IMG/VR virus record: IMGVR_UViG_3300042484_002676
Span: 1 to 49,145 of that record
Origin: a virus
Length of the DNA stretch: 49,145 nt
Reading direction: 5' to 3' (one strand)
The number at the start of each line of letters is the position of its first letter. Position 1 is the stretch's first letter. A model generated the notes under the pieces. That model was not told where the DNA came from and searched no databases. It was given only the letters and a program-made list of their open reading frames with translations. The position numbers were made by a program, and so were the translations under genes. Positions 9,101 through 46,728 of the stretch are shown in pieces.

Positions 9101-10465
9101 GGAACAGGTGGAAACATTACTGGTGCTAACTTAGTATCAGCTAACTTCTTTACAGGTACATTAACAACGGCAGCACAACCAAACATCACTAGTGTTGGGT
9201 CATTATCATCATTGACCGTAACTGGTAACGCTTCAGCAGGTAATTTAAACACAGCAGGTGCAGTTGTCGCAAGCACATTAACAAGTAATGTAACAACTGG
9301 TACTGCTCCATTAACAGTATCAAGTACAACACGTGTTGGTAACTTGAATGTTGCATATGCTAACGTTAGTGATTTTATTAGCGTAACCGCCGGATCAGGA
9401 AATAACTTTATTATCTTTGCAAATGCGGCATCTGGTAACATAACAGAACTAACAAGTACAGGTTTAATTGCAAACCTATCAAATAACTCTATTACAGCAA
9501 CTACATTTGTTGGTGCATTAAGTGGCGCGGCCACTAGTGCTACTACCGCAGGAACTGTAACAACTGCGGCTCAACCAAATATAACAAGTGTTGGTACTCT
9601 TACATCATTGGGTGTAAGTGGTACTATTACTGCATCGGCATTTACAGCTAACACAGGTGTGTTTACAGGTAATGGTTCAGGATTGAGTGCTATCGCAGGC
9701 GCTAACGTAACAGGTACTGTGCCATTAGCTACTAGTGCAACTACAGCAGGTACTGTAACAACTGCGGCTCAACCAAATATAACAAGTGTTGGTACTCTCA
9801 CTGGACTAACTTCAAGTGGTGCAATAAGCATTACTAATAGTACGGCAGCAACAAGCAGAACTACTGGTGCATTAATTGTTACAGGTGGTATTGGCGCAAG
9901 TGCAAATAGCTTTGTTACGAACTTAAATGTTGCAAGTAATATTGCTTACGTCTCACCTAACGGTGCAAACACTATCAACAGTCAGATGTTGAACGGTGGA
10001 ACACTTGCATGGAGTGGTAACGCAGGACAGTTGTTCAGTATTACTGATAGCATGTCTGGAAATATATTCTCAGTCAACGATGTATCTGGTATACCAATGA
10101 TTGCAGTTGATGCGGGCGGTAATATCTACTTTGCCGCAAGTGGTGGATTTGTAGCATATGGTGTAACTACTGGTATTACTGCCGCAGGCTCTACGCAAGG
10201 TACTGCTACAGCATTGACAAGACCAATCAACGTAGTAAGTAGTGTAAGTGCAAGCACTGGCGTTATTTTACCAGCTACAGTCGCAGGTATGAGAATACTT
10301 ATATTCAATACTAGCGGAACAGCAGTAAACGTGTACCCAGCTAGTGGCGGCGCAATCAATGCATTATCAACTAATGCGGCATATTCGTTACCACCGAGTG
10401 GCCGATTAGAATTTGTTGCAGTAACAACTACACAATGGTATACTCTAAACGCAACTTATGCGTAA
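110..10465 (+). CDS. Giant repetitive tail fibre protein (3451 aa)
   Basis: This is a very long, low-complexity beta-structured fibre, probably a trimeric long tail or side fibre that carries receptor-binding tips. It is rich in Gly, Thr, Ser, Asn, Ala and Val. It is built from short units of the type TAAQPNITSVGTLTSLAVTG followed by N.SAGNL, and from GNGSGLSAI and GATNGVF units, as in many T4-like phages of aquatic bacteria. Three long modules recur at about residues 650-844, 1577-1771 and 2567-2761; each begins with a DAATKQYVDDVAQGL-type segment typical of fibre domains and continues with a conserved ILVKNEATTANNGIYV segment. The C-terminal 150 residues are unique and contain ATVAGMRILIFNTSG and a Ser/Gly/Tyr-rich end, a likely tip or cap. 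No catalytic motif is visible. The start is set by AGGA at 100-103. The LamG array follows after 13 nt, suggesting joint assembly on the virion. Confidence 0.85.
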   Translation: MSLILKQENANSVPTPSAGKGTVFLNGSDQLTIKDSAGNSTSIPTFTATGNTSVFFNDAGTLGQDATLTFNKTTDLLTVANLTVTQTLIAGDIAVSSIANGTSNVDIVGVSGNVTTSVAGVANVLVVTSTGANIAGTLNATGNANVGNLGATGIVATTLAGSLTTNSQSNITSVGTLTSLAVTGNSSAGNLSTGGVLSATGNVIGGNLTTGGALSVTGNANVGNLGTAGLITATGNVTGGNLTTGGLVSGATLSVSGTSNLGPIANVTITGGTSGQIIQTNGSGGLSFATISTSGVSNGTSSVTIPTVNGNINLTSAGNTTMVVTGTGANVTGTANVSGNLVAGNLSTGGIVTATGNVTGGNLTTGGALSVTGNANVGNLGTAGLITATGNVTGGNIITGGVVSATGNVTGANINTAGAVTASTLVSNVATGTAPLTVTSTTRVANLNVNYANVADNINVAAGTGNNFLIFANAATGNVAEITSTGLTANLSNNSITATTFVGALSGAATSATTAGTVTTAAQPNITSTGTLTSVSVSGNANIGNVGTTGVFATTLSATGNANVGNIGATGGVFTTVTGTLTTASQPNITSLGTLTSASISGNANIGNIGTAGLITATGNLGAGNIITGGVVSATGNITGGNLVTAGILSVTGTGVSSIAGNLDMTSNTITNLATPTNATDAATKQYVDDVAQGLNIHDSCNAATTGTLATISGGTVTYNNGTSGVGATLTTTGTYTTIDGVTLADGMRILVKNEATTANNGIYVRTSATVLTRAADFNTPTEMEGGDFTFVTAGTLYDNTGWVMTDPVTTVGTSPVIWVQFSGAGTYTAGTGLTLTGSVFSVNVAQPTITSTGTLTSLSVSGNANVGNIGGAAGVFTTVTGSLVTAAQPNITSLGTITSLSISGNANIGNIGTGGFITATGNIGGGNINTAGLVSATGNGTFGNLNTAGTGTASRFISNVADGTAPLTVTSTTRVSNLNVAYANVADNINVAAGTGNNFIIFASAATGNVAEITSTGLTANLSNNSITATTFVGALSGAATSATTAGTVTTAAQPNITSVGTLSSLAVTGNLSSGNANLGNAARANFFIGDGSLLTNIPIGTSLSNGNSNVSIPAANGNVNISSAGNANIAIVTGTGVNVAGTLNATGNANVGNIGATNGVFTNVSGNGSSLSSITGANVTGAVAFATTANAVAGGNVSGQVANALVAGTVTTAAQPNITSVGTLSSLAVTGNASAGNLNTAGAVVASTLTSNIATGTAPLTVTSTTRVANLNVAQANLADFISVAAGTGNNFLIFANAATGNIAELTSTGLTANLSNNSITATTFVGALSGAATSATTAGTVTTAAQPNITSVGTLSALAVTGNTTSGNVYANSGTIGASLLTGTLTTAAQPNITSTGTLTSLAVTGNISGANLTGTHYGAATGLTGIPGANVTGTVPLATSATTAGTVTTAAQPNITSVGTLSALSVTGNISAGNVSATTFTGALSGAATTAGTVTTAAQPNITSVGTLSALAVTGNTTSGNVYANSGTIGASLLTGTLTTAAQPNITSVGTLTSATVTGNVAAGNLTTTGVLSVTGTGVSSIAGNLDMTSNTIINLATPTNSSDAATKQYVDDVAQGLNIHPSCNAATQTTLATISGGTVTYNNGTAGVGATLTTTGSYTTIDGVTLSNGMRILVKNEATTANNGIYVRTSSTVLTRATDFDTAAEIAGGDFTFVTAGTLYNSTGWVQIDEVTTVGTDPIVWEQFSGAGTYQAGTGLTLTGSTFSVNASQTQVTAVGTLTGLNSSGTITAPAFTANTGVFTGNGSGLSAIAGANVTGTVSSATTAGTVTTAAQPNITSVSTSFSGLTFVANAQITMSGAGSQISGVNLVSANSFSGNGSSITGINASSIASGTLAQARLANSTLTLGNTTLTLGGTTTTVAGLSSVTSTTFVGALTGAATTAGTVTTAAQPNITSTGTLTSVSVSGNANIGNIGTGGLITATGNLNAGNIITGGIVSATGNITANFFIGNGSQLTGLNTAGISNGNSNVNIPSANGNVNISAVGNANIAVVTGTGVNVAGTLNVTGTVTVGNIISSGTGGNISGANVISANTLIASGNGTFGNINTSGAVTASTLVSNVTTGTAPLTVTSTTRVANLNVNYANVADFISVAAGTGNNFIIFANAASGNITELTSTGLIANLSNNSITATTFVGALSGAATSATTAGTVTTAAQPNITSVGTLTSLGVSGTITAPAFTANTGVFTGNGSGLSAIAGANVTGAVSFASTANAVAGGNVSGQVANALVAGTVYTAAQPNITSVGTLSSLAVTGNASAGNLNTAGAVVASTLTSNIATGTAPLTVTSTTRVSNLNVAYANVADNINVSAGTGNNFLIFANAATGNVAEITSTGLTANLSNNSITATTFVGALSGAATSATTAGTVTTAAQPNITSTGTLTGLGVNGTITGVNITANTGVFTGNGSGLSQLAGGNVTGQVGNALVAGTVYTAAQPNITSVGTLTSVAVTGNATAGNVYANSGTIGASLLTGTLTTAAQPNVTSTGTLTSLAVTGNIAAGNLTTTGILSVTGTGVSSIAGNLDMTSNTITNLATPTNSSDAATKQYVDDVAQGLNIHPSCNAATTTTLASISGGTVTYNNGTAGVGATLTTTGSYTTIDGVTLSNGMRILVKNEATTANNGIYVRTSSTVLTRADDFNTAVEIAGGDFTFVTAGTLYNSTGWVQIDDVTTVGTDPIVWEQFSGAGTYQAGTGLTLTGTTFSVNESQTQITSVGTLTGLGVNGTITGVNITANTGVFTGNGSGLSAIAGANVTGTVSSATTAGTVTTNAQPNITSVGTLTSLSVTGNVSAGNVSGTLLTGTLTTAAQPNVTSLGILTGLGVNGTVTAAAFTANTGIFTGNGSALTALNASNISSGTLAQARLANASVTLGSTALTLGSTVTTVAGLSSVTSTTFVGALTGAATTAGTVTTNAQPNITSVGTLTSLSVTGNVTAGNLIAGSGTGGNITGANLVSANFFTGTLTTAAQPNITSVGSLSSLTVTGNASAGNLNTAGAVVASTLTSNVTTGTAPLTVSSTTRVGNLNVAYANVSDFISVTAGSGNNFIIFANAASGNITELTSTGLIANLSNNSITATTFVGALSGAATSATTAGTVTTAAQPNITSVGTLTSLGVSGTITASAFTANTGVFTGNGSGLSAIAGANVTGTVPLATSATTAGTVTTAAQPNITSVGTLTGLTSSGAISITNSTAATSRTTGALIVTGGIGASANSFVTNLNVASNIAYVSPNGANTINSQMLNGGTLAWSGNAGQLFSITDSMSGNIFSVNDVSGIPMIAVDAGGNIYFAASGGFVAYGVTTGITAAGSTQGTATALTRPINVVSSVSASTGVILPATVAGMRILIFNTSGTAVNVYPASGGAINALSTNAAYSLPPSGRLEFVAVTTTQWYTLNATYA
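2057..2641 (+). repeat. Fibre module, copy 1 of 3 (about 585 bp)
   Basis: In-frame direct repeat starting at the codons for SVTGTGVSSIAGNL and ending at FSVN. It closely matches the copies near 4838 and 7808 in DNA and protein. Edges were judged by eye. Confidence 0.75.
4838..5421 (+). repeat. Fibre module, copy 2 of 3
   Basis: Second copy of the 585-bp module. It is nearest to copy 3: both carry LNIHPSCNAAT and TLYNSTGWVQID where copy 1 has LNIHDSCNAAT and TLYDNTGWVMTD. Edges by eye. Confidence 0.75.
7808..8392 (+). repeat. Fibre module, copy 3 of 3
   Basis: Third copy of the module. The differences from copy 2 are scattered and largely synonymous, which fits duplication followed by homogenisation. 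Edges by eye. Confidence 0.75.
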
Positions 10466-34342: not shown

Positions 34343-34350
34343 TATAAATA
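34343..34350 (+). promoter_or_regulatory. T4-type late promoter of the first desaturase unit
   Basis: A perfect TATAAATA, followed by GAGGG at 34356-34360 and ATG at 34366. The leader would be about ten bases with the ribosome binding site at its 5' end. Confidence 0.7.
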
Positions 34351-34365
34351 CTGAAGAGGGCGCTT

Positions 34366-35133
34366 ATGAATTTTGGATCTACTTCAACAAATATTAATTT
34401 ATTAACTATAGCAACAGCCATAACATCCCTAGTAGGATTGTATAATGTTTCTATGTTCACATGGACTAATATTGTTATAATGTTAGCAAGTTTTTACGTT
34501 TTAAATATTTTGGGTGTATGGATGACCCTGCATCGATACTATTCACATAAATCATTTGAGTTTAAAAATACACACATTAAATGGTTTTTTACAATACTAT
34601 CAATAATTGCAGGGCGTGGTAGTCCATTAGGGTGGGTATATTTACATCGTAAACATCATGCTTATTCTGATACTGAGCAAGACCCGCATAGTCCTAAATA
34701 TTTAGGTTATAAACTGTTTGGATTCAATCATTACAAAAAACAGGAAGAAGAAAAAATGCAAGTGTTTATGATAAAAGACTTGATGACCAAAGAACATTTG
34801 TTTATTCACAAATGGTATATGTTAATTATAATATCTTTTATAGTACTATTTGCTGTACTCAGTTTTGAGTTGTTTTATTTTGCGTGGGTAGTCCCTGCAT
34901 TCCTAATACAGCTTAGCCAATATAATTTTAATTTCTTTGGCCATACGTATGGATACCGTAATTACGAAACTAAGGACGATAGTAAAAATAATAAATGGTT
35001 GTTTCCAATATTATTAGGTGAAGCTTGGCATAATAATCATCACAAGAATCCTGCCTTAGCAACTACAAAAATAAAACACTACGAATATGATCCATTACTA
35101 TCATTGATTAAATTGGTAGGAAACATAAAATGA
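34366..35133 (+). CDS. Membrane fatty-acid desaturase-like protein 1
   Basis: An integral membrane di-iron enzyme of the acyl-lipid/acyl-CoA desaturase family, which uses O2 and electrons to desaturate or hydroxylate acyl chains. All histidine boxes are intact: HRYYSH (56-61), HRKHH (94-98) with the following SDTEQDPHSP, and HNNHH (222-226), plus the NFNFFGH segment before the third box. Hydrophobic pairs lie at about 12-52 and 140-190. At 255 aa it is short; most family members exceed 280. A perfect late promoter is upstream. The stop overlaps the start of the 2OG oxygenase (ATGA). Substrate unknown. Confidence 0.9.
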   Translation: MNFGSTSTNINLLTIATAITSLVGLYNVSMFTWTNIVIMLASFYVLNILGVWMTLHRYYSHKSFEFKNTHIKWFFTILSIIAGRGSPLGWVYLHRKHHAYSDTEQDPHSPKYLGYKLFGFNHYKKQEEEKMQVFMIKDLMTKEHLFIHKWYMLIIISFIVLFAVLSFELFYFAWVVPAFLIQLSQYNFNFFGHTYGYRNYETKDDSKNNKWLFPILLGEAWHNNHHKNPALATTKIKHYEYDPLLSLIKLVGNIK

Positions 35134-35639
35134 CTCAACAATCTGACTTTTTTGTTAAACTAAACCTAACATCTAATGTAAGTAATGACATAATAGCAAA
35201 AATAAAAAACTCGTCTACTGAGCACTGGGGCCTCACATTAGACCAAGATATGATGCATCTGCACGTAGATGATTTTAAGAATGACCCGCACATAGTACAA
35301 ATCATAAATGATTTGGGCGGTGCCAACAGACTGTGTGTTTTTAGATTTCATCCAAACACATGTTACCAATGGCATGTTGATAAAATACGTAACGGGGCGA
35401 TAAACATGCTACTCACCGGATTTGATAGTTTTTGTGCTTTTGGATCAATGTCTCCCGATAGAAAATTTTCTAATTTAACTAAATTAGTGCATGATCCAGA
35501 TACATATTATTTAATGAATGTCAAGAAATTTCATACAGTATTTAATTTCTCGGAAACCAGGTATGTTGTGAGTATAAGTATACCTTCTACTACATATGAA
35601 GACACATGTACCTATCTTAAAGATAAGAATCTGATTTAA
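35130..35639 (+). CDS. 2-oxoglutarate/Fe(II) oxygenase-like protein
   Basis: A 169-aa double-stranded beta-helix protein resembling aspartyl/asparaginyl beta-hydroxylases. The iron site can be read as His82 and Asp84 (YQWHVDKIR) with His135 (KKFHTVFNF), and Arg144 (SETRYVVSIS) is placed to bind 2-oxoglutarate. Such enzymes hydroxylate or otherwise oxidise a substrate with O2 and 2-oxoglutarate. It is sandwiched between two desaturase genes, by a 4-bp overlap before and a 1-bp TAATG overlap after, with TAGGA upstream, so it is very likely part of the same pathway. Confidence 0.75.
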   Translation: MTQQSDFFVKLNLTSNVSNDIIAKIKNSSTEHWGLTLDQDMMHLHVDDFKNDPHIVQIINDLGGANRLCVFRFHPNTCYQWHVDKIRNGAINMLLTGFDSFCAFGSMSPDRKFSNLTKLVHDPDTYYLMNVKKFHTVFNFSETRYVVSISIPSTTYEDTCTYLKDKNLI

Positions 35640-36430
35640 TGTTGATAAATATTGACATGAAGAACATATTCACCAGTTCTACAATAGGAGCACAAATATT
35701 TCAAGTACTAGCTCTATTACTGATAGTAACGGGATTGTTCCAATATGGAATAACAATACAGACCGTGTTACTAGTAATGTTGGGTTATTTTTTGTATGGT
35801 TGTTTAGGCATTGTAGTTACATATCATAGAAATTTAACTCATAGTAGTTATGACACATATCCGTTATTGATTAAGATTTTTTCAGTATTTGGTTGCTTTG
35901 CAGGTACCGGTAGCCCATTAGCCTGGGTTGCAATACATATTAATCATCATTTAAGAAGTGATAAAATAGACGATCCTCATAGCCCTAGATACAAAGGACT
36001 CAAAATCTTTACATTAAATTATGTAAATGAAGTTAACAGTGATACTAAATGGCGCATGAGAAACATGGTAACTGATAAGTTCCAGCAGTTTCTACACCGT
36101 TATTACTTTGCTATAATCATGTTGTATAGTTTATGTCTATATCTAATCGGTGGTTTTTATTTACTAGTATTCCTTCACTTAGCTCCTGCATTAATCACCG
36201 GACTTATGAGTAACGTAGTTAACTATGTTGGACATAAGCCTACTTGGTTAGGCGGATATCGTTCGTATAATCTAAATGATGACAGCACTAACAATTGGTT
36301 ATGGGCTATTCCTAGTTGGGGAGAGTCTTGGCATAACAATCATCATAGATTCCCTAGAGATTACACATTCAAAAAGCAATGGTGGGAATTTGATATATCT
36401 GGATTAATTATCAAAGCTATAAAAAAATGA
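35639..36430 (+). CDS. Membrane fatty-acid desaturase-like protein 2
   Basis: Second desaturase (263 aa). The boxes HRNLTH (63-68), HINHH (100-104) with SDKIDDPHSP, and HNNHH (232-236) are complete, and the GESWHNNHH third box is kept. The second box has Ile-Asn where most members have Arg-x. The N-terminal and central hydrophobic pairs are strong. An alternative start at 35657 (MKNIFTSS) lies 5 nt after GATAAATA, so a shorter leaderless product is possible in late infection. The next desaturase overlaps by 4 bp. Confidence 0.9.
   Translation: MLINIDMKNIFTSSTIGAQIFQVLALLLIVTGLFQYGITIQTVLLVMLGYFLYGCLGIVVTYHRNLTHSSYDTYPLLIKIFSVFGCFAGTGSPLAWVAIHINHHLRSDKIDDPHSPRYKGLKIFTLNYVNEVNSDTKWRMRNMVTDKFQQFLHRYYFAIIMLYSLCLYLIGGFYLLVFLHLAPALITGLMSNVVNYVGHKPTWLGGYRSYNLNDDSTNNWLWAIPSWGESWHNNHHRFPRDYTFKKQWWEFDISGLIIKAIKK
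35644..35651 (+). promoter_or_regulatory. Possible internal late promoter in desaturase 2
   Basis: GATAAATA is followed by exactly 5 nt and an in-frame ATG at 35657. The spacing equals that at the two divergent starts near 41443 and 41485. Confidence 0.35.
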
Positions 36431-37182
36431 AAAGATATATGTACCCAAGAGGTTGGTTTTTTATAACAATGCAGATTATTGCTACTATAGTAACTCTATG
36501 GGCAATTTTTAATCCTGCAGGATTGGGCTATTGGATGTTATCATTGTTTGGTTATTTCTTAATAACTTGTTTAGGTATTTCTGTTATGTTTCACAGATTG
36601 CTAACTCATAAATCATATAAAGTATGGAAGCCCATAGAATACCTCTTTAGTTATTTTGGAAACATTGGTTGTACTGGTAGTTCTGTAGGTTGGGTATTTG
36701 TTCATAGGATGCATCATAGATTTGCTGATAAGCCTGGCGACCCCCACAGCCCTGTTACCATGGGAGCATTAGGAGCAATAGTCGGAGACTACAGTGGAAA
36801 ATTTAACAAATGGGAAGTCAGAGATATCATCAATGACCCGGTACACAGATTTATGCATGAATGCTACATGCTAATAGTGTTGACAACTGTGCTTGTCCTA
36901 TACATGATTGATCCATTGTTATCTGTTTATCTATTCTGGATTCCAATGTTCTTAAACACAGTAGCACCTAGATTAAGCAATTGGATCGATCATGATCCAA
37001 AGTTTGGCACAAAGGCTGATAATAGTAAAGACCAATCTCATAATGTATGGTGGTGGGCACTTCTAACATTCGGGGAAGGATGGCATAACAATCATCATTT
37101 GCGACCCGGTGACTATAGTATAGGAAAGAAGTGGTGGCAAATTGATATCGGTGGTCTGGTTGTTAAATTAATTAGACTATAA
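36427..37182 (+). CDS. Membrane fatty-acid desaturase-like protein 3
   Basis: Third desaturase (251 aa). The boxes are HRLLTH (56-61), HRMHH (93-97) with ADKPGDPHSP, and HNNHH (220-224) in GEGWHNNHH. A WIDHDPKFGTKADNSKD segment replaces the usual NxxGH before the third box; the His is retained. It ends KKWWQIDIGGLVVKLIRL, the WWEID-type tail shared with desaturases 2, 4 and 8. It is coupled by ATGA to desaturase 2, and a PP-loop gene follows after 29 nt. Confidence 0.9.
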   Translation: MKRYMYPRGWFFITMQIIATIVTLWAIFNPAGLGYWMLSLFGYFLITCLGISVMFHRLLTHKSYKVWKPIEYLFSYFGNIGCTGSSVGWVFVHRMHHRFADKPGDPHSPVTMGALGAIVGDYSGKFNKWEVRDIINDPVHRFMHECYMLIVLTTVLVLYMIDPLLSVYLFWIPMFLNTVAPRLSNWIDHDPKFGTKADNSKDQSHNVWWWALLTFGEGWHNNHHLRPGDYSIGKKWWQIDIGGLVVKLIRL

Positions 37183-37211: not shown

Positions 37212-38129
37212 ATGAAATTACCCTTTTATGACAATTGGCAAAAATGGACTGTCAATGATGTTTTATATAGCCACAGAAAAAATAAATCAGACCATTGGAA
37301 TTTCTCAATGCGTAGATGCACTGATCCGATCGGCACACTAAAAGAAGAACTTTTTAACAATGCTAGCAAGATAAGAGACTATTACACCGGACCATTTGAT
37401 GTGTTATATTCAGGTGGTATAGATAGCGAAGTAGTACTTAGGGTGTTTAAAGAATTAGGTATAAAGCACAATACTATAATTGTTAAGTACAAAAATGGAT
37501 ATAACCATAGAGAAATCACTAATGCAATCGAAACTGTAAAATCACTGAATATACCTTATAAGTTAATTGATTTTGATTTAGAAAAGTTCTATGAAACAGA
37601 AGCATATGATTTAAGTATAGAAAGTTCATGTATACGTGTAGGAAGAGCAACACACATAAAATTTTGTAAAGATTTTTGCGACAACATTCCTGTTATGGGT
37701 GAGGGTGATGTATATTGGCGCCGAGATTTAGGAACAGATTATAGTAAACCCTCAGCCTGGAGATTTATTATAGCAGAAGACTCTCACAATTGCGGGATGT
37801 TTATGACAAAGCTGGGTCGAGAAAACGTATGTGATTTCTTTGAGTTTACACCCAATGTCATTAAAGCATACAACAATTACCCACTGGTACAACAATTGTT
37901 AAATGACAAAATTTTAGGTAAGACTAGTAATTGGTCTAGCAAATGGTTGATATATAGAGATATATGGCCTGATCTAGTACAGCGTGTAAAATTAACAGGG
38001 CTTGAAGGTGACAAAGAACCGGGTTATATGCCTATGTTTGTAAAAGAACTACAGGATGTGATAGAAGCTAAAATTGGCTCCGGGGTCACGTATTGGTGCA
38101 CCCCGGAAGAACTAGACAAATTCGTTTAA
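37212..38129 (+). CDS. Stand-alone PP-loop ATPase 2
   Basis: A 305-aa paralogue of PP-loop 1. The PP-loop SGGIDSE is at 67-73 (FDVLYSGGIDSEVVLR), followed by LGIKHNTIIVK and a conserved RATHIKFCKDFCDNIPVMGE segment that matches VATHFWMLEQCNDTPVFAG in the other copy. The C-terminal part contains YWRRD, SAWRF and TYWCTPEEL. No glutaminase, RNA-binding or zinc-finger domain is seen, which argues against QueC or TilS proper. It is the last gene of the desaturase 1-3 unit. Its TAA shares bases with the stop of the convergent Rieske gene (TTTAAA). Confidence 0.8.
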   Translation: MKLPFYDNWQKWTVNDVLYSHRKNKSDHWNFSMRRCTDPIGTLKEELFNNASKIRDYYTGPFDVLYSGGIDSEVVLRVFKELGIKHNTIIVKYKNGYNHREITNAIETVKSLNIPYKLIDFDLEKFYETEAYDLSIESSCIRVGRATHIKFCKDFCDNIPVMGEGDVYWRRDLGTDYSKPSAWRFIIAEDSHNCGMFMTKLGRENVCDFFEFTPNVIKAYNNYPLVQQLLNDKILGKTSNWSSKWLIYRDIWPDLVQRVKLTGLEGDKEPGYMPMFVKELQDVIEAKIGSGVTYWCTPEELDKFV

Positions 38130-38995
38130 ATCTTATTTTCTATATACCAATCAGCCCAGTGCTTTGATTGATCTTCCCACTTGTTAACAGTGCGCCTTAA
38201 GGGGAAATAAGGTCTTTTGATTTTTTCAATAGCAGCTATATCTTCACGATAAACGTCAACACACTTTTCCCAGTCCTCTTTTTCTACTTTACCTAAGTCA
38301 GGTGAATAGTAGAATTGCATATGCCAATTAAATCCATATTCTAGATTTGCATCATTTGGAGTAACTCTAGTAATTACAAGTTTTCCAGGCTCATACTCGA
38401 TGTTAAAGCCCGGGTAAACGAATAGCCAAAATCCCTTAGACCCGTAAGACGTAGGATACATTTGTATAGACCACCCGTCTCCAAATTCATTTTCAATCTT
38501 TTCTAAAGGTGTTTCTAAACTTTGTCTAGGATGAACTCCGTTTTGACGAATATGCAACAAATCAGTCATTTGTTCCATAAGCCACAACCAACTTCCGTTG
38601 CTTGTACCTGTTAGACTATGACTGTAAGCCATTAATGGGGCTTCTCTTAAAATTTTAGACCATTCTGCATCTTCTGGTTCTGTAAAATTCTCATATAGAA
38701 TACCTGTCTTGCTTAATGTAGCTTGACCGTGATGATGCATCTTGTAAAAATGACTGCAATATGGTTCTTTTTCTAATGGTTTACCTTCTAAGTCCCATGC
38801 AAACCCGTGCAGCTTACATACAACATTATTTACCATATCACCCGGTTCGTGCATTATGTATCCGCGGTGAGGACACTCCCTGCTCTTGATATCATATTGG
38901 TTATTGTTCTTTATTATGATCTTGTCTTGTAGCACAAAGTTACCATTATTCAATGCTGATGCATGGGCAAAAATGTTAGGTGGGTTCTTGAACAT
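38126..38995 (-). CDS. Rieske non-haem iron oxygenase
   Basis: A 289-aa oxygenase alpha-subunit-like protein, short for the family (usually 340-450). The Rieske [2Fe-2S] motif is complete: Cys41, His43 (CPHRG), then Cys60 and His63 (CKLHG), 16 residues between pairs. The catalytic domain has Asp145, His148 and His155 (EQMTDLLHIRQNGVH), and an ED..AIE segment near the end offers the Asp ligand. The gap between the two iron His residues is six, against four in most members. The start at 38995 is preferred because GAGAG lies 10-15 nt upstream; the longer frame reads into the preceding gene. Reductase and ferredoxin genes are absent from the window. Confidence 0.88.
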   Translation of the reverse strand: MFKNPPNIFAHASALNNGNFVLQDKIIIKNNNQYDIKSRECPHRGYIMHEPGDMVNNVVCKLHGFAWDLEGKPLEKEPYCSHFYKMHHHGQATLSKTGILYENFTEPEDAEWSKILREAPLMAYSHSLTGTSNGSWLWLMEQMTDLLHIRQNGVHPRQSLETPLEKIENEFGDGWSIQMYPTSYGSKGFWLFVYPGFNIEYEPGKLVITRVTPNDANLEYGFNWHMQFYYSPDLGKVEKEDWEKCVDVYREDIAAIEKIKRPYFPLRRTVNKWEDQSKHWADWYIENKI

Positions 38996-39029
38996 ATGAC
39001 TATTTCTCTCAGTGTGAAAATATAAGTAA

Positions 39030-40208
39030 TTAAACAGTTGGAATTCTATTAAAATTATCAACATCACCAATGTAGAAAGCCGATGTATATGTTATTAATC
39101 CAGTGCCATCTTTATTTAAGTATTTTTTATCTATTGAATTATAAAAGTGTCTGGTGTCGGATGCAATCATTTCAAATGTTCTAGTAGACTTGTGTAAATC
39201 ATAAAACCATTGGTCATGTTCGCCGAGGAATATTTTAGTAGGTTTCTCCGCTTGGAATATTGGTGTTGCCGTCGAGGGATATATAGTGGGGACTATTGCC
39301 CTTTCATACTTGCTATGTCGCATTCTTTTTTGAGCATCAGACATATTCTCTGTAATTGAAAGGTCATTTACATAACGACCAATGCTAGCGTCACTAAAAA
39401 CTTTTTTTGTCACAACATGTGCTTGTTTAATAAGCATTTGAGTATGATATTTTGACCAATAAAATGCAATATTATAAACGTTAGGATATTCACGATCAAA
39501 TACAGGCCTTGCAACGTTGATAGCTAAGTCACTGAATGCGATGTAAATCTTTTTATTTTTTGTAATGACAACCATTGGTTTGTCAATTCCGTAAATAAAA
39601 CCTATCTTTTTTTCACTGTCAGCCAACTTAACAAGATGTTTTTGTCTTTCTAATCTATATCGGGCTATCCCTGAAGGATGCACCCAGTCTTCTGATCTGT
39701 ATAACCAATCGTCTGATTTAAAATCTAGGATGTCTTGAAAATAATCATGCACTGTTATCTTAACATCAGGGTAGTCTATTGCAATTTGTTTAATAAATGG
39801 GATCTGTGTATATAGTGTTTCACTAATAGTATTTTTGTTAGAAGTATCGCTATTGTTGAAGTCAAAGTTACTGAGCCCACTAAGTGGAACGCTAGCAACT
39901 ATCTCATCTATTTTGATGCCATTTCTTAGAAAGGTCAGCACTACATTTGAACTGTCAGCACCACCGCTACAAAAAACAATGATATAATCAAACTCCTCAC
40001 GAAGTTGTTTAGCCCGTTGAACATAAAAATAATCTAATGATTCCGCTGGCTCTTCGGTCCAATTGAAGGTTTTAAATGAATCATTATTAAAATACCAAGA
40101 CACCTCGGATTTTGTCTTGTTAGCTTCTATTATTGCATCAATCTTATGAATAAACCGCTGGCCTCCTACAATATAAAAATTGTCGTTATCGATATTTTTT
40201 TGCATCAT
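39030..40208 (-). CDS. Stand-alone PP-loop ATPase 3
   Basis: The longest PP-loop protein of the locus (392 aa). SGGADSS is at 81-87 (YIIVFCSGGADSSNVVL). The N-terminal 75 residues resemble neither PP-loop 1 nor 2. Later it has KKIGFIYGIDKPMVVI, placed like the second ATP-binding strand of asparagine synthetase-type domains, and FYWSKYHTQMLIKQAHVV. Adenylating ligase chemistry is inferred from the fold. Its ATG directly abuts the stop of the cupin gene, so the two are made together. The stop at 39030 is 34 nt before the Rieske start. Confidence 0.78.
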   Translation of the reverse strand: MMQKNIDNDNFYIVGGQRFIHKIDAIIEANKTKSEVSWYFNNDSFKTFNWTEEPAESLDYFYVQRAKQLREEFDYIIVFCSGGADSSNVVLTFLRNGIKIDEIVASVPLSGLSNFDFNNSDTSNKNTISETLYTQIPFIKQIAIDYPDVKITVHDYFQDILDFKSDDWLYRSEDWVHPSGIARYRLERQKHLVKLADSEKKIGFIYGIDKPMVVITKNKKIYIAFSDLAINVARPVFDREYPNVYNIAFYWSKYHTQMLIKQAHVVTKKVFSDASIGRYVNDLSITENMSDAQKRMRHSKYERAIVPTIYPSTATPIFQAEKPTKIFLGEHDQWFYDLHKSTRTFEMIASDTRHFYNSIDKKYLNKDGTGLITYTSAFYIGDVDNFNRIPTV

Positions 40209-40826
40209 TTAAATGTAAGTCCTAGACTTCATTGGATTGAATTCATCTCTTGGACCATCCTCACTATCCGGGTGAAATACGGCTAAGGACATCATTTGAT
40301 TCTCTGTGCGGAATCTGTGAATAACGTGACGCTCTAGTAGAAATATAGTGCCAGGTGTCAAATCAATGTCATGGTCATTTAATGATGCTATGCCCTTACC
40401 TTTTAAAATAATTCCTATGCGTATAGAGGGATGGCTATGAAAAGTTTGGTTAATTCCTGCAGGGAAATACAAGTAGTTCAAACACGGATCTCCATTACGA
40501 GACGGATCAATTAGGTTTGTATTACTACAACCATCTATGTAACTCAAGTGACCTGGTTCGCTTGAGTTAATTATTGCAAACCTTTCTTCTGGTATTAAAA
40601 TGCCGGGTGTTTCAATAACAATTCCTTTGCCTACAATAGTGAAGGAGGAATTGACACTGGCGGCAACAACACCAGTTACCGAGAATTTATCCCCGATTAA
40701 TGTACCGTCTTCCATCAATATAAACCTAGTATGATCTGCTTTAGATATTTCAATCGAATCAGTAACCGGAATAATATTAACAACATGTTTTGATTTGACT
40801 AAAGTTGGTGAGTTAATTAATTTCAT
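40209..40826 (-). CDS. Cupin-domain protein
   Basis: A 205-aa protein with an N-terminal beta-strand domain (to about residue 95) and a C-terminal single cupin: FHSHPSIRIGIILKGKG (130-146) and LTPGTIFLLERHVIHRF (156-172). His130, His132 and His167 or His170 could bind a metal. The usual Glu after HxH is not evident (Arg136/Ile137 occupy the place), so it may be a non-classical metal site or a binding protein. Its stop abuts PP-loop 3 and its start overlaps the upstream gene by one base. Confidence 0.7.
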   Translation of the reverse strand: MKLINSPTLVKSKHVVNIIPVTDSIEISKADHTRFILMEDGTLIGDKFSVTGVVAASVNSSFTIVGKGIVIETPGILIPEERFAIINSSEPGHLSYIDGCSNTNLIDPSRNGDPCLNYLYFPAGINQTFHSHPSIRIGIILKGKGIASLNDHDIDLTPGTIFLLERHVIHRFRTENQMMSLAVFHPDSEDGPRDEFNPMKSRTYI

Positions 40827-41443
40827 TATATAATTTCATCCTTATTGAATATTTGTAAACGATATCGTTGTGCTAATGTATGGTACATTATAACTGTATC
40901 TATAGGAACAGTTTTGAAATGTCCTGAAAAATAAAAAGAGTGAGCATTGCATTTGCAGTTGGCATTGGCAGGATATACCATGTCATAATAAACATCGTAT
41001 CTTACCTCGTCCCTACTAACATGCATGTCAATAATTTTTTCTATTGTTTTTTGATGACTTAGTGGCCTGCGTGAATAGAAGTTATAGAAACCATTGTCTT
41101 CACCGTATATAATTAACATTTTTAACAATTCTAAGAAGTAAATATTATTGACCTTATAATTAATACCCAATCCGATGGTCTTACTTAAATGATTTGTAGC
41201 ATACCAGGTTAACGAGTAATTTGGATAATATCCACCTAACGAATTTACTAGCTCTCCGTTAACAAACACTCCTGCTATTTTATTATCAGATGAATTGATT
41301 TTAACATCAAACAAATTCAACAAGTATTCATTTATTACAGAGTCTTTTTTGAAGCCCATAAAATTTTTATGACCTTCAATTATTTCCCTGTATTGGTCCT
41401 TATCCGCTCTTTCCAAAAATCTGTAAATTACGATATCAGTCAT
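40826..41443 (-). CDS. Unknown protein, possibly acyltransferase-like
   Basis: A 205-aa protein. The order of segments (KIAGVFVNGELVNSLGGY, then a long helix KVNNIYFLELLKMLIIYGED, then FYNFYSRRPLSHQKTIEKI) recalls a GNAT fold, but no acyl-CoA loop can be read, so this is weak. An NANCKCNAHSFYF segment carries two Cys and one His. It is the first gene of a four-gene minus-strand unit (this gene, cupin, PP-loop 3, Rieske). There is no Shine-Dalgarno; the ATG is 5 nt after GATAAATA. Confidence 0.5.
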   Translation of the reverse strand: MTDIVIYRFLERADKDQYREIIEGHKNFMGFKKDSVINEYLLNLFDVKINSSDNKIAGVFVNGELVNSLGGYYPNYSLTWYATNHLSKTIGLGINYKVNNIYFLELLKMLIIYGEDNGFYNFYSRRPLSHQKTIEKIIDMHVSRDEVRYDVYYDMVYPANANCKCNAHSFYFSGHFKTVPIDTVIMYHTLAQRYRLQIFNKDEII

Positions 41444-41448
41444 ATAAA

Positions 41449-41456
41449 TATTTATC
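41449..41456 (-). promoter_or_regulatory. Late promoter of the cupin/PP-loop/Rieske unit
   Basis: GATAAATA on the minus strand, then TTTAT and the ATG at 41443. With T4-like spacing, transcription would begin at or beside the A of ATG, giving a leaderless mRNA. Confidence 0.5.
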
Positions 41457-41471
41457 GTTAGGTCGACATAC

Positions 41472-41479
41472 TATAAATA
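41472..41479 (+). promoter_or_regulatory. Late promoter of the radical SAM gene
   Basis: A perfect TATAAATA, followed by TTTAT and the ATG at 41485, the same 5-nt spacing as on the opposite strand. A leaderless transcript is predicted. Confidence 0.6.
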
Positions 41480-41484
41480 TTTAT

Positions 41485-42945
41485 ATGAATGTCATACTTT
41501 TAACCTGTGTTTCAGGTACATTATACCAACGAGCATTAGGTGCATACCAATTGGCATTTTTCCTCAGGGAACACGGGTACACCGTTCAAGTAATAGATTT
41601 TACAGATGAATTAAGTGAAAATGAACTGATTGAGGCACTCGATAATCACATAACATCTGACACCTTATGTATAGGTATAAGCACAACATTCTATAATGAT
41701 TTTAATGTTGAAATATTTTCTTCAACCAGAGACTACAAAGCACATATACCTAAAAACATAAAATCTGCAATTGAATATTCCAAACAGAAATATTCAAATA
41801 TAAAAGTGGTACTAGGTGGAGCAAAGTCATTGACAGGCGAGCACTTAGACTTTGTTGATTGTGTTATCCATGGGTATGGTGAAGATAAGATGTTAAATTT
41901 TTTGAACGGATTAGATAATAATCCCAAACGAATAAAAAATAAAATAATTACCTTAGGTCAATCAACATCAAAACAATTAATCATATATAATGACCCGTTA
42001 GATTGTAAATTTGACATACAGAAAAATAGCCATCGTTTCATTGAACAGGATTATATATTGCCCAATGAAACATTACCTATTGAAATTTCTCGAGGGTGTA
42101 TTTTTAAATGCAAATTTTGTGCATACCCATTAACAGGTAAGAAAAAATTTGATTATATAAGAGACCCAAAACTCATTTATGATGAAATGATGTATAACTA
42201 TGAAAATTTTAACACAACTAATTATTTTTTCGGAGACGATACACTAAACGATAGCACATTTAAAATAGAAAGCCTACATAAATCTATAACATCTTTGCCA
42301 TTTAAAATAAAATTTACATCATATTTAAGATTGGATTTGTTACACCATAACCCGGAACAAATTTCTATGTTAAAGGAAATGGGACTAGCAAGCCCGTTTT
42401 TTGGTATTGAAAGTTTAAATCAACGATCTGCTTCTAGCGTAGGTAAGGGAATGGATGTTAATAAAGTAAAAGAATTTTTACTTGAGTTGTATAATGATCA
42501 TTGGAACAAAGAGATTCCAATATACTTATCATTAATTATAGGTCTCCCATACGAAACAGAAAAATCTATGAGAGAGACATTTCAATGGGTAAAAGAGACA
42601 GAACTTAGTGCTAGTTTTCAACCACTGTCTATATTATCACAATCTATTTACAAATCAGAATTTGAGAAGAACATACAGAAATACGGATATACAGTAAAAG
42701 AAAATGGTTACTGGGAAAACGAGAACATGAATGTTAATCAAGCCGAGGTCTTATCTAAAGAATTCAATGAGACTTTATTGTTTAAATCTAGACCGGCTAG
42801 CTGGTTTTTAATGACGTTATTAAATCATAATATGACGTTAGATCAATGTAGTAGCATGACAGTTAGTGATTTAAATTGGACTAAGATAATTCTTGCCAAA
42901 AAGAAAAAAATAGCAAAATATAAATCACTATTACTCAGAACCTAA
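41485..42945 (+). CDS. Radical SAM enzyme with a B12-binding-like N-terminal domain
   Basis: A 486-aa protein. Residues 1-140 look like a cobalamin-binding-type Rossmann domain (MNVILLTCVSGTLYQRALGA; LREHGYTVQVIDF; VVLGGAKSL; CVIHGYGED) but lack the DxHxxG cobalamin His, as many relatives do. The radical SAM core starts at ISRGCIFKCKFC with Cys205, Cys209 and Cys212 for the [4Fe-4S] cluster; FFGDDTLND and GIESLNQRS are the usual SAM-domain segments. Such enzymes perform difficult methylations, ring closures or C-C bond chemistry. The frame starts within a divergent promoter repeat. Its end overlaps the end of desaturase 4 by 11 bp. Confidence 0.9.
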   Translation: MNVILLTCVSGTLYQRALGAYQLAFFLREHGYTVQVIDFTDELSENELIEALDNHITSDTLCIGISTTFYNDFNVEIFSSTRDYKAHIPKNIKSAIEYSKQKYSNIKVVLGGAKSLTGEHLDFVDCVIHGYGEDKMLNFLNGLDNNPKRIKNKIITLGQSTSKQLIIYNDPLDCKFDIQKNSHRFIEQDYILPNETLPIEISRGCIFKCKFCAYPLTGKKKFDYIRDPKLIYDEMMYNYENFNTTNYFFGDDTLNDSTFKIESLHKSITSLPFKIKFTSYLRLDLLHHNPEQISMLKEMGLASPFFGIESLNQRSASSVGKGMDVNKVKEFLLELYNDHWNKEIPIYLSLIIGLPYETEKSMRETFQWVKETELSASFQPLSILSQSIYKSEFEKNIQKYGYTVKENGYWENENMNVNQAEVLSKEFNETLLFKSRPASWFLMTLLNHNMTLDQCSSMTVSDLNWTKIILAKKKKIAKYKSLLLRT

Positions 42946-43705
42946 AAATAATACTGAATGATTTTCCTATCAACGCCTCTATATCTATTTCCCACCACCG
43001 TTCATGTAAATTCAATTTCTTAGCATCTCGATGATGATTGTTGTGCCAGCCGAAACCCATTGTTAAGAATCCTAGTACTAGATTATTGTGGCTATCATCT
43101 AGTAGGTCGTGGTTTCTATAGTTACCAGGAATGTATTTCAAGTGGAGTATAGAATTGATTAACCCGAATTTTATAAGTTCTAGTACGTAACTTGCCGACC
43201 AAAGCAAAAATAATTCTGGGCTTATAACATACATGAGAACATAAAATAATACATTAATTTCAATAAAGCGTTTTGATGGGTTACTTATATCAGGATCACG
43301 CAATGTTTTTATGGTTAATATCTTAGAACTGCGGTCATCAAACACACTGTTAATTATTGCAGGTCTGAACATCCAGAAAATTATACTATTCCACAATCCA
43401 TTTTTTGGGCTATGTACATCATTTTTTTGGTCACTATTACGGTGATGGTGTAAATGTTGTACTATCCAATAGAAAGGTGTACTATATCCTGAGATAATAG
43501 TATAGTATGAAAATAGTTTTCGTGAATAAGGACCAACTGTAAATTGATTATGAGCGAAATATCGATGACCTACAACACCATTACCAATAGTTCTAAATAA
43601 CCAGACTGGTATCAGTAACCACCAATAGCTTATATAATAAAAAGATACAAGACCTAATATCGTTAATATAATGCTGAAAAAAACGTATGAACGAGTATTT
43701 GTCAT
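42935..43705 (-). CDS. Membrane fatty-acid desaturase-like protein 4
   Basis: Last gene of a five-desaturase operon (256 aa). The boxes are HRYFAH (47-52), HLHHH (84-88) with SDQKNDVHSP, and HNNHH (221-225) in GFGWHNNHH. The second box has Leu-His in place of Arg-x, and Val where most members have Pro in DPHSP. It ends RWWEIDIEALIG plus a short hydrophobic tail. The pre-third-box ILHLKYIPGNYRNHDLLDDS keeps the His. It overlaps desaturase 5 by 4 bp. An additional di-iron oxidation step is inferred. Confidence 0.9.
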   Translation of the reverse strand: MTNTRSYVFFSIILTILGLVSFYYISYWWLLIPVWLFRTIGNGVVGHRYFAHNQFTVGPYSRKLFSYYTIISGYSTPFYWIVQHLHHHRNSDQKNDVHSPKNGLWNSIIFWMFRPAIINSVFDDRSSKILTIKTLRDPDISNPSKRFIEINVLFYVLMYVISPELFLLWSASYVLELIKFGLINSILHLKYIPGNYRNHDLLDDSHNNLVLGFLTMGFGWHNNHHRDAKKLNLHERWWEIDIEALIGKSFSIIFRF

Positions 43706-44445
43706 TTTGAAAGAAGTTTAATAAAAAAGTAGCTACCGTCGAATTCACCTCTCGCTACTGCCAGATTGTTTAGTCTAATATTATCATGGTGATTTTTGTG
43801 CAAGGTGCTCCCACCAGATATCCAACTTAAAATTTTATTATTTCGGCTAGTGAACTCTGACCCGTTTTTGTGGTGCAAAAATGCATTTACTAACATTTCG
43901 CTATGAAATGTTAAGGCACATCCTAACAATGTGCCGGTGAACACGTTGAAATCTAAGATTAGTAATATCAATAGTCCAATCAAAACAATGTGCTTGGAGT
44001 ATTTATTAATGGTCAATAAAGTTGTATCTCTTAATAAATCTTTAACTGTAATTAAATTAAACTCTCGTAAATTGAATAACCATAATATATAGGCATGTAG
44101 TAACCCATCAGAAGGTGTATGGGGGTCATTTATCGTATCGCTATTTGAGTGATGTTGTCTATGTATTTGAGCCCAAGTAACAGGTCCGCCCATTAATCCA
44201 AAACAGCTTAATATTGCAATAAAATATTTTATCACATTGTTTTTTGGTGTCCAGTTTTTGTGAGCGAATAACTTATGAGTTCCCGCCTGTATACCTAACC
44301 AATATATAAGAACATAACTAATAGCCATGGATAATAGAGTAACAATCCAATTCGACACATAAAATAAAGAAATTATCATAGCGAATTGTAGTGGTAGGTT
44401 AAACCAAAAATAGTATTGTCGGCTTTCTGTCTTTAAAGAACTCAT
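43702..44445 (-). CDS. Membrane fatty-acid desaturase-like protein 5
   Basis: The most divergent desaturase (247 aa from the chosen start). The boxes are still complete: HKLFAH (57-62), HRQHH (95-99) with SDTINDPHTP, and HKNHH (216-220). The third box sits in STLHKNHHDN instead of GEGWHNNHH, and the last 25 residues lack the WWEID tail, so substrate or reaction may differ. The start at 44445 is preferred to an upstream in-frame codon because it forms the same ATGA overlap with desaturase 6 as every other junction in this operon. Confidence 0.88.
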   Translation of the reverse strand: MSSLKTESRQYYFWFNLPLQFAMIISLFYVSNWIVTLLSMAISYVLIYWLGIQAGTHKLFAHKNWTPKNNVIKYFIAILSCFGLMGGPVTWAQIHRQHHSNSDTINDPHTPSDGLLHAYILWLFNLREFNLITVKDLLRDTTLLTINKYSKHIVLIGLLILLILDFNVFTGTLLGCALTFHSEMLVNAFLHHKNGSEFTSRNNKILSWISGGSTLHKNHHDNIRLNNLAVARGEFDGSYFFIKLLSK

Positions 44446-45209
44446 TTTAAAAATCTTTCTACTAAAAAAGCACATAAATCCCATTCGAATGGTTTTTTAG
44501 TAAATGCAAAGTCATACTCTCCCGGTTTAGCATGATGGTTATTATGCAAACCTTCTCCCAATGTCAGCCAATTCCACATATGACTATTAACCGTAGAATC
44601 TGTGGTTTCAAAATTTCTATAACCCTGACTAGGCAAATGCAGAGGTAAACTTAATACGGCTGAAGACCACCAACTAAAACCAGCAGGCAACATATAGCAA
44701 AATAACACCAGTTTAGGATCGATCAATGCTAACAACAGGATGTATAAAAAGATTACTGCAAAATAATATTTGTGTAACCACATTAATGTTGGGTTTCGTA
44801 GCAAGTCTTTTATACTTCCTACAGAAGTCTTCTCAGAAGGATCTTCTTTATACCAATGCCAAAAACTTCTCCAATACCCTATCTCATGGGGACTGTGTAA
44901 ATCCTTGCCGTTATCACTATTAGCATGGTGATATCTATGTACAGTTACATATTGTAGAGTACTACCAGTAGTGCTTAATGTAGCAAGTAAGGCAATAAAC
45001 TTTTCCTTCCATTCAGACATCTTGAAACTCTTATGTGTAAAGTAACGGTGTTGACCGATACTAGCGCCGAATTTACTAACAAACAGAATTCCAAATAGTG
45101 CTGCTAGGTAATACCCTAGGCTATTTACATATATTAGATATATAACTATTGGAATTATAGCCCATGTATTTAATTGTTGTATAATTCTAAGCAAGATAGT
45201 ATTGTTCAT
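44442..45209 (-). CDS. Membrane fatty-acid desaturase-like protein 6
   Basis: Desaturase of 255 aa with HRYFTH (54-59), HRYHH (91-95) followed by SDNGKDLHSP, and HNNHH (222-226) in GEGLHNNHH. Leu replaces Pro in the DPHSP motif. Three to four membrane-spanning stretches are visible (residues about 17-50, 70-90, 145-185). The GYRNFETTDSTVNS loop before the third box resembles that of desaturase 1. ATGA overlaps on both sides. Confidence 0.9.
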   Translation of the reverse strand: MNNTILLRIIQQLNTWAIIPIVIYLIYVNSLGYYLAALFGILFVSKFGASIGQHRYFTHKSFKMSEWKEKFIALLATLSTTGSTLQYVTVHRYHHANSDNGKDLHSPHEIGYWRSFWHWYKEDPSEKTSVGSIKDLLRNPTLMWLHKYYFAVIFLYILLLALIDPKLVLFCYMLPAGFSWWSSAVLSLPLHLPSQGYRNFETTDSTVNSHMWNWLTLGEGLHNNHHAKPGEYDFAFTKKPFEWDLCAFLVERFLK

Positions 45210-45967
45210 AACTTCTTAATCATAAAAATTTTTTCGATCAATATGCCAGGAAAATCAAATTGTCCCTTAGCCATAACATATGAATATGCACCGGGGTTGT
45301 GGTGATGATTGTTATGATATCCCTCATTCCATGTTAACCATTTTAAAAATGTGTTGTTACTACTATTATCCTTAGTATTGAAGGGTCGTGTCCCAAACTC
45401 TGGCCTATGTCCTAATACATTGACTAATCCAGCTGCAATGAAATTATAAATCACATTAAAACTTAAAAAATACCCAGTGAGTTCAACCCCTAATGTAACT
45501 AACAATAATATCAGTAACGCTATATTTAAAAGAAAATAATTTCTGTGTATCCACTTGTGTACCGGGTCTTTTATTAAATCTGACACTAACTTAGCTTCAA
45601 TGCTGTAATTTTTATTTCGCACGTAGAATACAACTTTCCACCATGGTGTAGTAATGTGTGGGTCTCGTTCAGTATCACTGAATGCGTGATGTTGTCTATG
45701 AATTCCTGAATACGTTATGCTTGATCCATATAATAAAGGGGTGCTAAAAAAATGTAAAATCATTTCTTTAAATTTTGTCGTCTTGTAGCTCTTATGACAC
45801 CACAGTCTATGCAATGCAACTTCATTACCAATTGCATTAAAAAATTTCGCAACGGCCCAACCGAATAGAAGAAAGTACCAATCAAAATGAGCCACTAGTG
45901 TATACGATACTATAATAGCATGTACTGCTATCATAAACATTAATTTTGCGTGAAACGATACCTTCAT
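45206..45967 (-). CDS. Membrane fatty-acid desaturase-like protein 7
   Basis: Desaturase of 253 aa, the copy most like classical bacterial delta-9 enzymes by eye: EVALHRLWCHKSYK (box 53-58), HRQHH (90-94) with SDTERDPHIT, NVLGHRPEFGTR, and NEGYHNNHHHNPGAY (box 218-222). The NExxHNxHH context is the usual family form. It lacks the WWEID tail. It is overlapped by desaturases 8 and 6 by 4 bp each. Substrate unknown. Confidence 0.91.
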   Translation of the reverse strand: MKVSFHAKLMFMIAVHAIIVSYTLVAHFDWYFLLFGWAVAKFFNAIGNEVALHRLWCHKSYKTTKFKEMILHFFSTPLLYGSSITYSGIHRQHHAFSDTERDPHITTPWWKVVFYVRNKNYSIEAKLVSDLIKDPVHKWIHRNYFLLNIALLILLLVTLGVELTGYFLSFNVIYNFIAAGLVNVLGHRPEFGTRPFNTKDNSSNNTFLKWLTWNEGYHNNHHHNPGAYSYVMAKGQFDFPGILIEKIFMIKKL

Positions 45968-46716
45968 TTTTTAATCATCCTAATGAACAAACCCGGCGGG
46001 TCAATTTCCCACCATTTTTCTCCCTGTTTCCAAGACCCGGGATGGGCATGGTGATTATTGTGCCAACCTTCACCTAGACTTAGAATATTAGCAATCCAAC
46101 TATTTTTCGAAGTATCTTTTGTTTGATGTGTTTCGTATCCATGGATGTGTCCAATGACCGTAACAGATGCGACACCGTTTAAACAGCCGGTTGCGGGAAT
46201 CGCATATGCGAAAATTATTAAAAGTGGATCGATAATGGCTAAAATAATTACATATAAGAAAATTACCTTGAAGTAGTGCTTATGTAAAAAAACGATGACG
46301 GGATCTTTAATAACATCAGCAATGTACTTTCTTGAAATATCGACTCTTTTCCAGTTATACGTGTATGCTTTAAACCACCCTATATGTCTTGGACTGTGAG
46401 GATCCATCTCAGTGTCGGCATGTTGGTGGTGATATCGATGTACCGCTACCCAACTAATAATAGATCCTAATGTTGCTAAAGTGCCAACTACTGCTAAAAT
46501 TATCTCCATTGGTCTGTTAGTTTTATAGGAACGGTGGCTAAAATATCTATGGAATCCGGCATTTGCGCCTACTATTCCAAATAGAAGAAAACTAAAAATA
46601 GCTATACTAGCATAATACATCCCAGGATGTAATACCAAGTAGACAATGCCAACACAACTTAGAGTCGCATTTAACAGTTGCAATAGTTTTATTTGATGAT
46701 TAAAGTTTCGTCGCAT
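45964..46716 (-). CDS. Membrane fatty-acid desaturase-like protein 8
   Basis: First gene of the five-gene operon (250 aa from the chosen start). The boxes are HRYFSH (56-61), HRYHH (93-97) with ADTEMDPHSP, and HNNHH (219-223) in GEGWHNNHHAHPGSW, ending KWWEIDPPGLFIRMIKK. The start ATG at 46716 is taken because it is the first ATG and lies just after AATAAATA; a TTG at 46749 would add 11 residues but has no ribosome binding site. The next gene overlaps by 4 bp. Confidence 0.89.
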   Translation of the reverse strand: MRRNFNHQIKLLQLLNATLSCVGIVYLVLHPGMYYASIAIFSFLLFGIVGANAGFHRYFSHRSYKTNRPMEIILAVVGTLATLGSIISWVAVHRYHHQHADTEMDPHSPRHIGWFKAYTYNWKRVDISRKYIADVIKDPVIVFLHKHYFKVIFLYVIILAIIDPLLIIFAYAIPATGCLNGVASVTVIGHIHGYETHQTKDTSKNSWIANILSLGEGWHNNHHAHPGSWKQGEKWWEIDPPGLFIRMIKK

Positions 46717-46720
46717 CTTG

Positions 46721-46728
46721 TATTTATT
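46721..46728 (-). promoter_or_regulatory. Late promoter of the five-desaturase operon
   Basis: AATAAATA on the minus strand, 4 nt from the ATG of desaturase 8, with no Shine-Dalgarno between. It is one base tighter than the other promoter-to-ATG cases, so leaderless initiation here is less certain. Confidence 0.4.

Follow-up and report, generated by a model that had tools for sequence, protein, structure and literature searches.

Divergent T4-type late promoters predicted to be fused to their start codons at a perfect inverted repeat in a jumbo-phage fragment

The late promoters of phage T4 (gp55/gp33/gp45) consist of an 8-bp TATA box, NATAAATA, with an AT-rich stretch behind it and no -35 box. 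In T4 itself, ATAAATA stands at least 12 nt from the start codon, and 14 of the 19 genes with a late box also have a Shine-Dalgarno site. Single leaderless phage messages, mRNAs beginning with AUG, include that of lambda cI. The available part of the T4 literature places the late box at -13 to -6, i.e. 5 nt short of +1 (PMC1524935), and the accessible text on the jumbo phage CBB, which also belongs to the T4 superfamily, describes ATAAATA boxes upstream of structural genes (PMC5259590). For AR9, a giant phage with mapped starts, the accessible portion of the record gives leaders of 26-491 nt, and for the pelagimyophages the authors' own search for late promoters failed, according to the available sections of their study (PMC7029224). 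Leaderless starts are reported as ATG or GTG in the accessible part of work on mycobacterial leaderless mRNAs (PMC4633059).

At the locus described here, the T4-type late box lies 5 nt from the start codon of each of two divergent genes. The window, by which we mean the whole stretch of DNA analysed (49,145 bp, an IMG/VR virus record), carries an inverted repeat at 41440-41488 with the following features:

41440..41455: left arm, 16 bp, with ATAAATATTTAT at 41444-41455
41456..41472: centre between the 15-bp arms, 17 bp
41473..41488: right arm, 16 bp, with ATAAATATTTAT at 41473-41484
41472..41479, plus strand: late -10 box TATAAATA, 5 nt before ATG 41485; predicted start A41485, following T4
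41449..41456, minus strand: late -10 box GATAAATA, 5 nt before ATG 41443; predicted start 41443, following T4
41443..41450, plus strand: inward-facing second TATAAATA, left arm; if used, would give the plus-strand gene a 29-nt leader
41478..41485, minus strand: inward-facing second TATAAATA, right arm; if used, would give the minus-strand gene a 29-nt leader

Positions 41441-41455, CATATAAATATTTAT, are the exact reverse complement of 41473-41487, ATAAATATTTATATG, with 17 bp between them. The preliminary description had claimed a 15-bp perfect inverted repeat, which proves to be exact and one pair longer, 16 bp per arm, when the T41440/A41488 pair is counted; the likeness of the arms extends to a 22-nt version that is 91% complementary. 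It is the sole inverted repeat in the window whose arms measure at least 15 and whose gap is no longer than 60 nt, and 0 of 200 whole-window dinucleotide shuffles gave one. ATAAATATTTAT is a 12-bp palindrome with one copy in each arm, and because each arm contains it, the two arms also form a direct repeat, 29 bp in period, and in each of them both strands have a late -10 box. The start codons lie inside the arms (ATG 41485-41487 on the plus strand, 486 aa; ATG 41443-41441 on the minus strand, 205 aa), and these, together with a late -10 box and a 5-nt TTTAT spacer in each arm, are all present where they had been placed before. The TTTAT directly downstream of the late box on both sides is an AT-rich stretch, as in T4-type late promoters, and no -35 box is visible at this divergent pair. 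Neither gene of the pair has a Shine-Dalgarno site, the feature that the preliminary description had named as telling against leaderless messages. From their position, the inward-facing boxes could provide a second transcript with a 29-nt leader for each gene; the possible leader that the left-arm box would give to the plus-strand gene has no Shine-Dalgarno site near the ATG, and the same holds for the minus-strand gene. The octamer TATAAATA is not enriched in the window (8 observed versus 9.2 expected), so a bare copy proves nothing, and it is the placement relative to start codons that is informative instead.

To the right, the pair serves a single radical-SAM gene, and to the left a set of four genes, the putative two halves of the pathway in the preliminary description; the window contains other late promoters of both spacings:

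41485..42945, plus strand: radical-SAM protein, 486 aa, with a B12-binding match just under the Pfam cut-off; predicted leaderless
40826..41443, minus strand: 205-aa protein with no family match, first of four closely spaced genes; predicted leaderless
38126..40826, minus strand: remaining leftward set, namely a cupin (40209-40826), an unknown protein (39030-40208) and a Rieske protein (38126-39070)
35645..35659, plus strand: further late promoter predicted to be leaderless, with ATAAATA, a 5-nt spacer and ATG 35657 (desaturase)
46714..46727, minus strand: further late promoter predicted to be leaderless, with ATAAATA, a 4-nt spacer and ATG 46716 (desaturase)
34344..34368, plus strand: a contrasting late promoter of the leadered kind, with ATAAATA, 15 nt including GAGG, and ATG 34366

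Eight fatty-acid desaturase genes (PF00487, matched by 8 of the 8 ORFs picked as such) lie at 34366-37182 and 42935-46716 in one 15-kb stretch, where genes of radical-SAM, Rieske, cupin and PP-loop-like type are interspersed among them; such a metabolic cluster is unusual for a phage. Elsewhere in the window, a 3451-aa repetitive open frame at 110-10465, probably a tail fibre as guessed from its repeats, has a leadered late promoter (box at 85) and a Shine-Dalgarno site.

Nine related records were reached via a 654-aa protein encoded in the window, among them a 524,565-bp relative (G004) that is 77% identical over this protein, and G009, of 139 kb, which is more distant at 45% identity. No late sigma gene is found in the window, which is a fragment. 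G004 has a gp55-type late sigma gene (phrog_12791, E 1e-72; T4 gp55 in a six-frame search, E 4e-5) directly before a gp47-like gene, and in T4, genes 47 and 55 are likewise near each other. This sigma gene and its neighbour indicate that the group consists of T4-superfamily jumbo phages. Judged by late sigma and terminase, the cultured phages nearest to it are PA5oct/Paride-type phages, Sinorhizobium phage Phosso and Atu_ph07. Radical-SAM homologues occur in six of the nine relative records at 31-35% identity, and one of the nine encodes a homologue of the 205-aa protein. Among the viral contigs searched there were no close relatives of either divergent gene; the genome contigs and phage records searched gave none of the radical-SAM protein, and the Rieske protein as query found no close relatives either. 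As a separate observation, three relatives (L059, L062, L064) carry 38 tRNA genes in 59 kb, whereas the window has none. A long hairpin recurs at five places in relatives (L059:16232, L062:3532, L064:8352, L034:18519, L050:5342), near tRNA genes in the first three, with arms like GCATTCTAAAACACACT and its complement and a variable loop of roughly 40-60 nt; Rfam reported no family for it.

Over the 60 nt that precede ORF starts, the late motif TAAATA is the top enriched 6-mer in G004 (146 genes versus 18.7 expected), in the window taken together with the family pieces (50 versus 8.7), and in G009 (38 versus 4.9). The distance from ATAAATA to the start in G004 is bimodal, with 28 cases at 4-6 nt, 33 at 16-21 nt, and few between. 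When gene calling is left aside, ATG follows ATAAATA at 4 nt 24 times and at 5 nt 31 times over 209 sites, where 4.35 are expected for each. We distinguish a close class, with [AC]TAAATA 4-6 nt before the start, from a leadered class, with the motif 12-30 nt before it. As controls, the opposite-strand motif TATTTAT gave no peak at ORF starts and 0 cases at 4-6 nt, and the other permutations of the ATAAATA heptamer gave a mean of 1.75.

The two classes differ in their ribosome-binding sites. Close genes number 32 in G004, 11 in the family set with the window, 8 in G009, 9 in HTVC008M, and 5 in Mosig, of which 0, 0, 1, 2, and 0, respectively, have a Shine-Dalgarno site; leadered genes number 59, 17, 17, 5, and 15, of which 39, 11, 10, 5, and 10 have one. 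Pooled over these five phage sets, the site is present in 3/65 close versus 75/113 leadered genes (Fisher 1e-17), a comparison in which the pair of the window contributes two of the 65, G003, which duplicates part of G004, is excluded from the family set, genes that span the border between 20-kb pieces are lost, and the sets are not fully independent, since G005 has at least one gene identical to G004. The start codon of close genes is ATG in 64/65 and TTG in 1/65. Their spacers, 68% AT, are most commonly 5 nt (48/82), followed by 4 nt (29/82). Neither class has a -35 box by the test applied, TTGAC or TTGAA within 25 nt upstream of the box being found for 4/65 close and 4/113 leadered genes. 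We found no downstream nucleotide signature, as codons 2-11 of close and leadered genes differ little in composition. A divergent upstream neighbour is found for 24/64 close genes versus 114/991 other genes.

The close class has a restricted distribution. Run with the same script, T4 (0/201 ORFs), S-PM2 (0/184), CBB (0/470), and X1 (0/244, without its last 58 bases) have no gene with the motif at 4-6 nt, and P-SSM2 (1/246), PA5oct (1/332), and Atu_ph07 (1/583, covering 400 of 490 kb) have a single one each. With 0-1 close genes in seven T4-superfamily phages, the class is not general to T4-like phages, and on these sequence counts it is lineage-specific, comprising the jumbo-phage group described here and the Pelagibacter myophages HTVC008M and Mosig. 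Among 106 reciprocal best pairs of G004 and G009 genes (26 with unequal starts), eight are close in both, three in G004 only, and one in G009 only, and ten are leadered in both; in the eight shared pairs, it is chiefly the box in which the upstream DNA is similar. Both phages have the terminase large subunit in the close class, and the orthologues in G002 and G005 of the desaturase at 35657 have the same start position and are close as well. In HTVC008M, the class includes the tape measure, tail tube, baseplate wedge, baseplate initiator, DNA end protector, head closure, and a gp33-like regulator (phrog_385), and the tail tube and DNA end protector recur in it in Mosig. The metallophosphoesterase family phrog_1649 is represented in the close class of Mosig, and twice in that of G004. 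PHROG annotation reached 29/43 close and 10/55 leadered genes of at least 100 aa in G004. A homing-endonuclease-like gene of G004 (L046:16776-17753) also has a predicted ATG-fused late promoter.

Taken together, we think it highly probable that the repeat is a pair of ATG-fused T4-type late promoters giving leaderless mRNAs, and one of a lineage-specific class. The promoters would stand back to back, each fused to the start codon of its own gene; a gp55-type late sigma factor would read NATAAATA, and transcription would begin about 5 nt downstream of the box, presumably on the A of the ATG. Both messages would then be leaderless, with ribosomes binding the 5'-terminal AUG, and the site would be one case of a leaderless late class that exists alongside ordinary leadered late genes with Shine-Dalgarno sites. 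Since the predicted starts, 41443 and 41485, are 42 bp apart, two polymerases would probably not sit on both promoters at once and would exclude each other. The divergent late promoters of the preliminary description are well supported by the enrichment of the motif upstream of genes, by the late sigma in a close relative, and by the preference for transcription-unit starts, and its proposal of leaderless mRNAs is strongly supported, at the level of sequence, by the bimodal spacing, the scarcity of Shine-Dalgarno sites, and the conservation between orthologues. Polymerases favour starting at a pyrimidine-purine step, and the T found before the ATG in 31/48 of the 5-nt spacers fits such a start. 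By analogy with T4, the position of the box and the 5-nt spacer would put +1 on the A of the ATG; T4 and six other phages of its superfamily are without the class, so that the T4 start position serves as an analogy only. A weak point is that with the 4-nt spacers a start at the fixed distance of T4 would fall on the U of the AUG, and flexibility of the start site is then required.

The comparison with known systems runs in both directions. T4 shares the box, the AT-rich stretch behind it, the lack of a -35 box, and, through G004, the gp55-type sigma gene, but the whole close class stands at 4-6 nt and is almost without Shine-Dalgarno sites, and CBB likewise differs in having no box at that distance. 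Unlike lambda cI, which is one gene, the class here spans two phage lineages and includes late genes for structural as well as accessory proteins. Like the mycobacterial leaderless mRNAs, as far as the available text describes them (PMC4633059), the close class has a predicted 5' end at the ATG, no Shine-Dalgarno site, and a nearly obligatory ATG; it differs in that these are phage late genes with a phage-type promoter and 5' ends predicted from sequence.

The model of ATG-fused promoters does not account for the fact that the two arms are identical. Wherever two late promoters each stand 5 nt before an ATG, 10 of the 15 positions in the arms must match, and the true surplus of likeness is the common 5-nt spacer TTTAT. 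An identical 5-nt spacer is found in 4 of 861 pairs of other promoters of the close class (the window itself excluded), a figure that relates to a pair chosen post hoc. Divergent close pairs are also found in G004 (L033), G002 (L059), G007 (L064), and HTVC008M (DNA end protector/head closure), and matched arms only in the pair of the window, where the start codons are 41 nt apart. The arms may have arisen by copying, in which a promoter-plus-ATG was duplicated inverted before the other gene and the symmetry itself has no function, and we give this somewhat less than an even chance. The likeness continues past the promoter and ATG into the 22-nt version, and the relatives, in which the radical-SAM homologues are distant and the 205-aa homologue is rare, have no orthologous pair here. 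However, the likeness stops quickly on both sides, most of the matching positions are dictated by the box and the ATG, and nothing puts a date on the event; chance with AT-rich spacers is also possible, as the pair was picked because it is conspicuous.

A different reading concerns the box itself. ATAAATA near the ATG could be an A/U-rich translation signal that works independently of Shine-Dalgarno sites and is no promoter, with transcription starting further upstream, as might be suggested by the near absence of Shine-Dalgarno sites from the close class and by the 20/64 close genes that lie less than 30 nt behind a same-strand gene. We find this improbable, because the same heptamer stands 12-30 nt upstream of genes that do have Shine-Dalgarno sites, it is the T4 late box in a group whose member G004 has the late sigma gene, the spacing is tight at 4-6 nt, and close genes prefer divergent starts and long upstream gaps (median 41 versus 7 nt for other genes).

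As for the matched arms, Mosig carries one copy of the same arm, TATAAATATTTATATGA, at L195:960-992, ahead of an unknown gene of 191 aa that has a divergent neighbour, and the other side is different; the arm can thus act as a promoter on one side alone, and there is no need for the dyad to be an operator. The suggestion in the preliminary description of a dimeric regulator, which would bind the dyad as an operator and control both late promoters jointly, draws on the exact 16-bp symmetry, the rarely shared spacer, and the palindromic nature of each arm, but is unlikely, given that a search for the same repeat found it in 0/9 related records, that ATAAATATTTAT was not found in G004, G009, or the family pieces, that the other divergent close pairs have unmatched arms, that Mosig has its arm on one side only, and that no candidate regulator was identified.

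A further question is whether the phage ribosomal protein bS21 is connected with the class. G004 has two bS21 homologues, in L031/L032 (63744-63896) and in L052 (471943-472095), and bS21 is also present in HTVC008M, PA5oct, Phosso, Atu_ph07, Salicola SCTP-2, and Vibrio 2.275.O. The search gave no bS21 for T4, P-SSM2, S-PM2, or X1, CBB has two sub-threshold matches, and G009, a 139-kb fragment with the close class, has no match. The accessible parts of earlier studies report bS21 in Mosig (PMC9004378), list it among the proteins core to all pelagimyophages (PMC7029224), show HTVC008M bS21 incorporated into E. coli ribosomes (PMC9976891), and describe phage bS21 as expressed late (PMC9723584). 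It is conceivable, though we regard it as doubtful, that an ATG-fused leaderless late regulon in two T4-superfamily lineages goes together with a phage bS21 that retools host ribosomes toward leaderless over Shine-Dalgarno mRNAs late in infection. As a sufficient cause of the class, bS21 was rejected, since PA5oct and Atu_ph07 have the protein yet one close gene each; its presence in phages without the class makes it at most a helper.

Among the matches listed from the literature on leaderless mRNA in phages, jumbo phages, and T4-like late promoters, which include PMC5312081, PMC9004378, PMC9693318, PMC10070969, PMC4633059, PMC7029224, and PMC3037559, we found no report of an ATG-fused leaderless late class. 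Promoters fused to the ATG may explain why the late promoters of pelagimyophages were missed. If the proposed reading is true, essential late genes such as the terminase, tail tube, and DNA end protector would bypass the Shine-Dalgarno step, unlike those of T4 and the tested cyanophages. Gene starts in such genomes would become fixed, and phage leaderless translation would be testable in a cultured phage-host pair.
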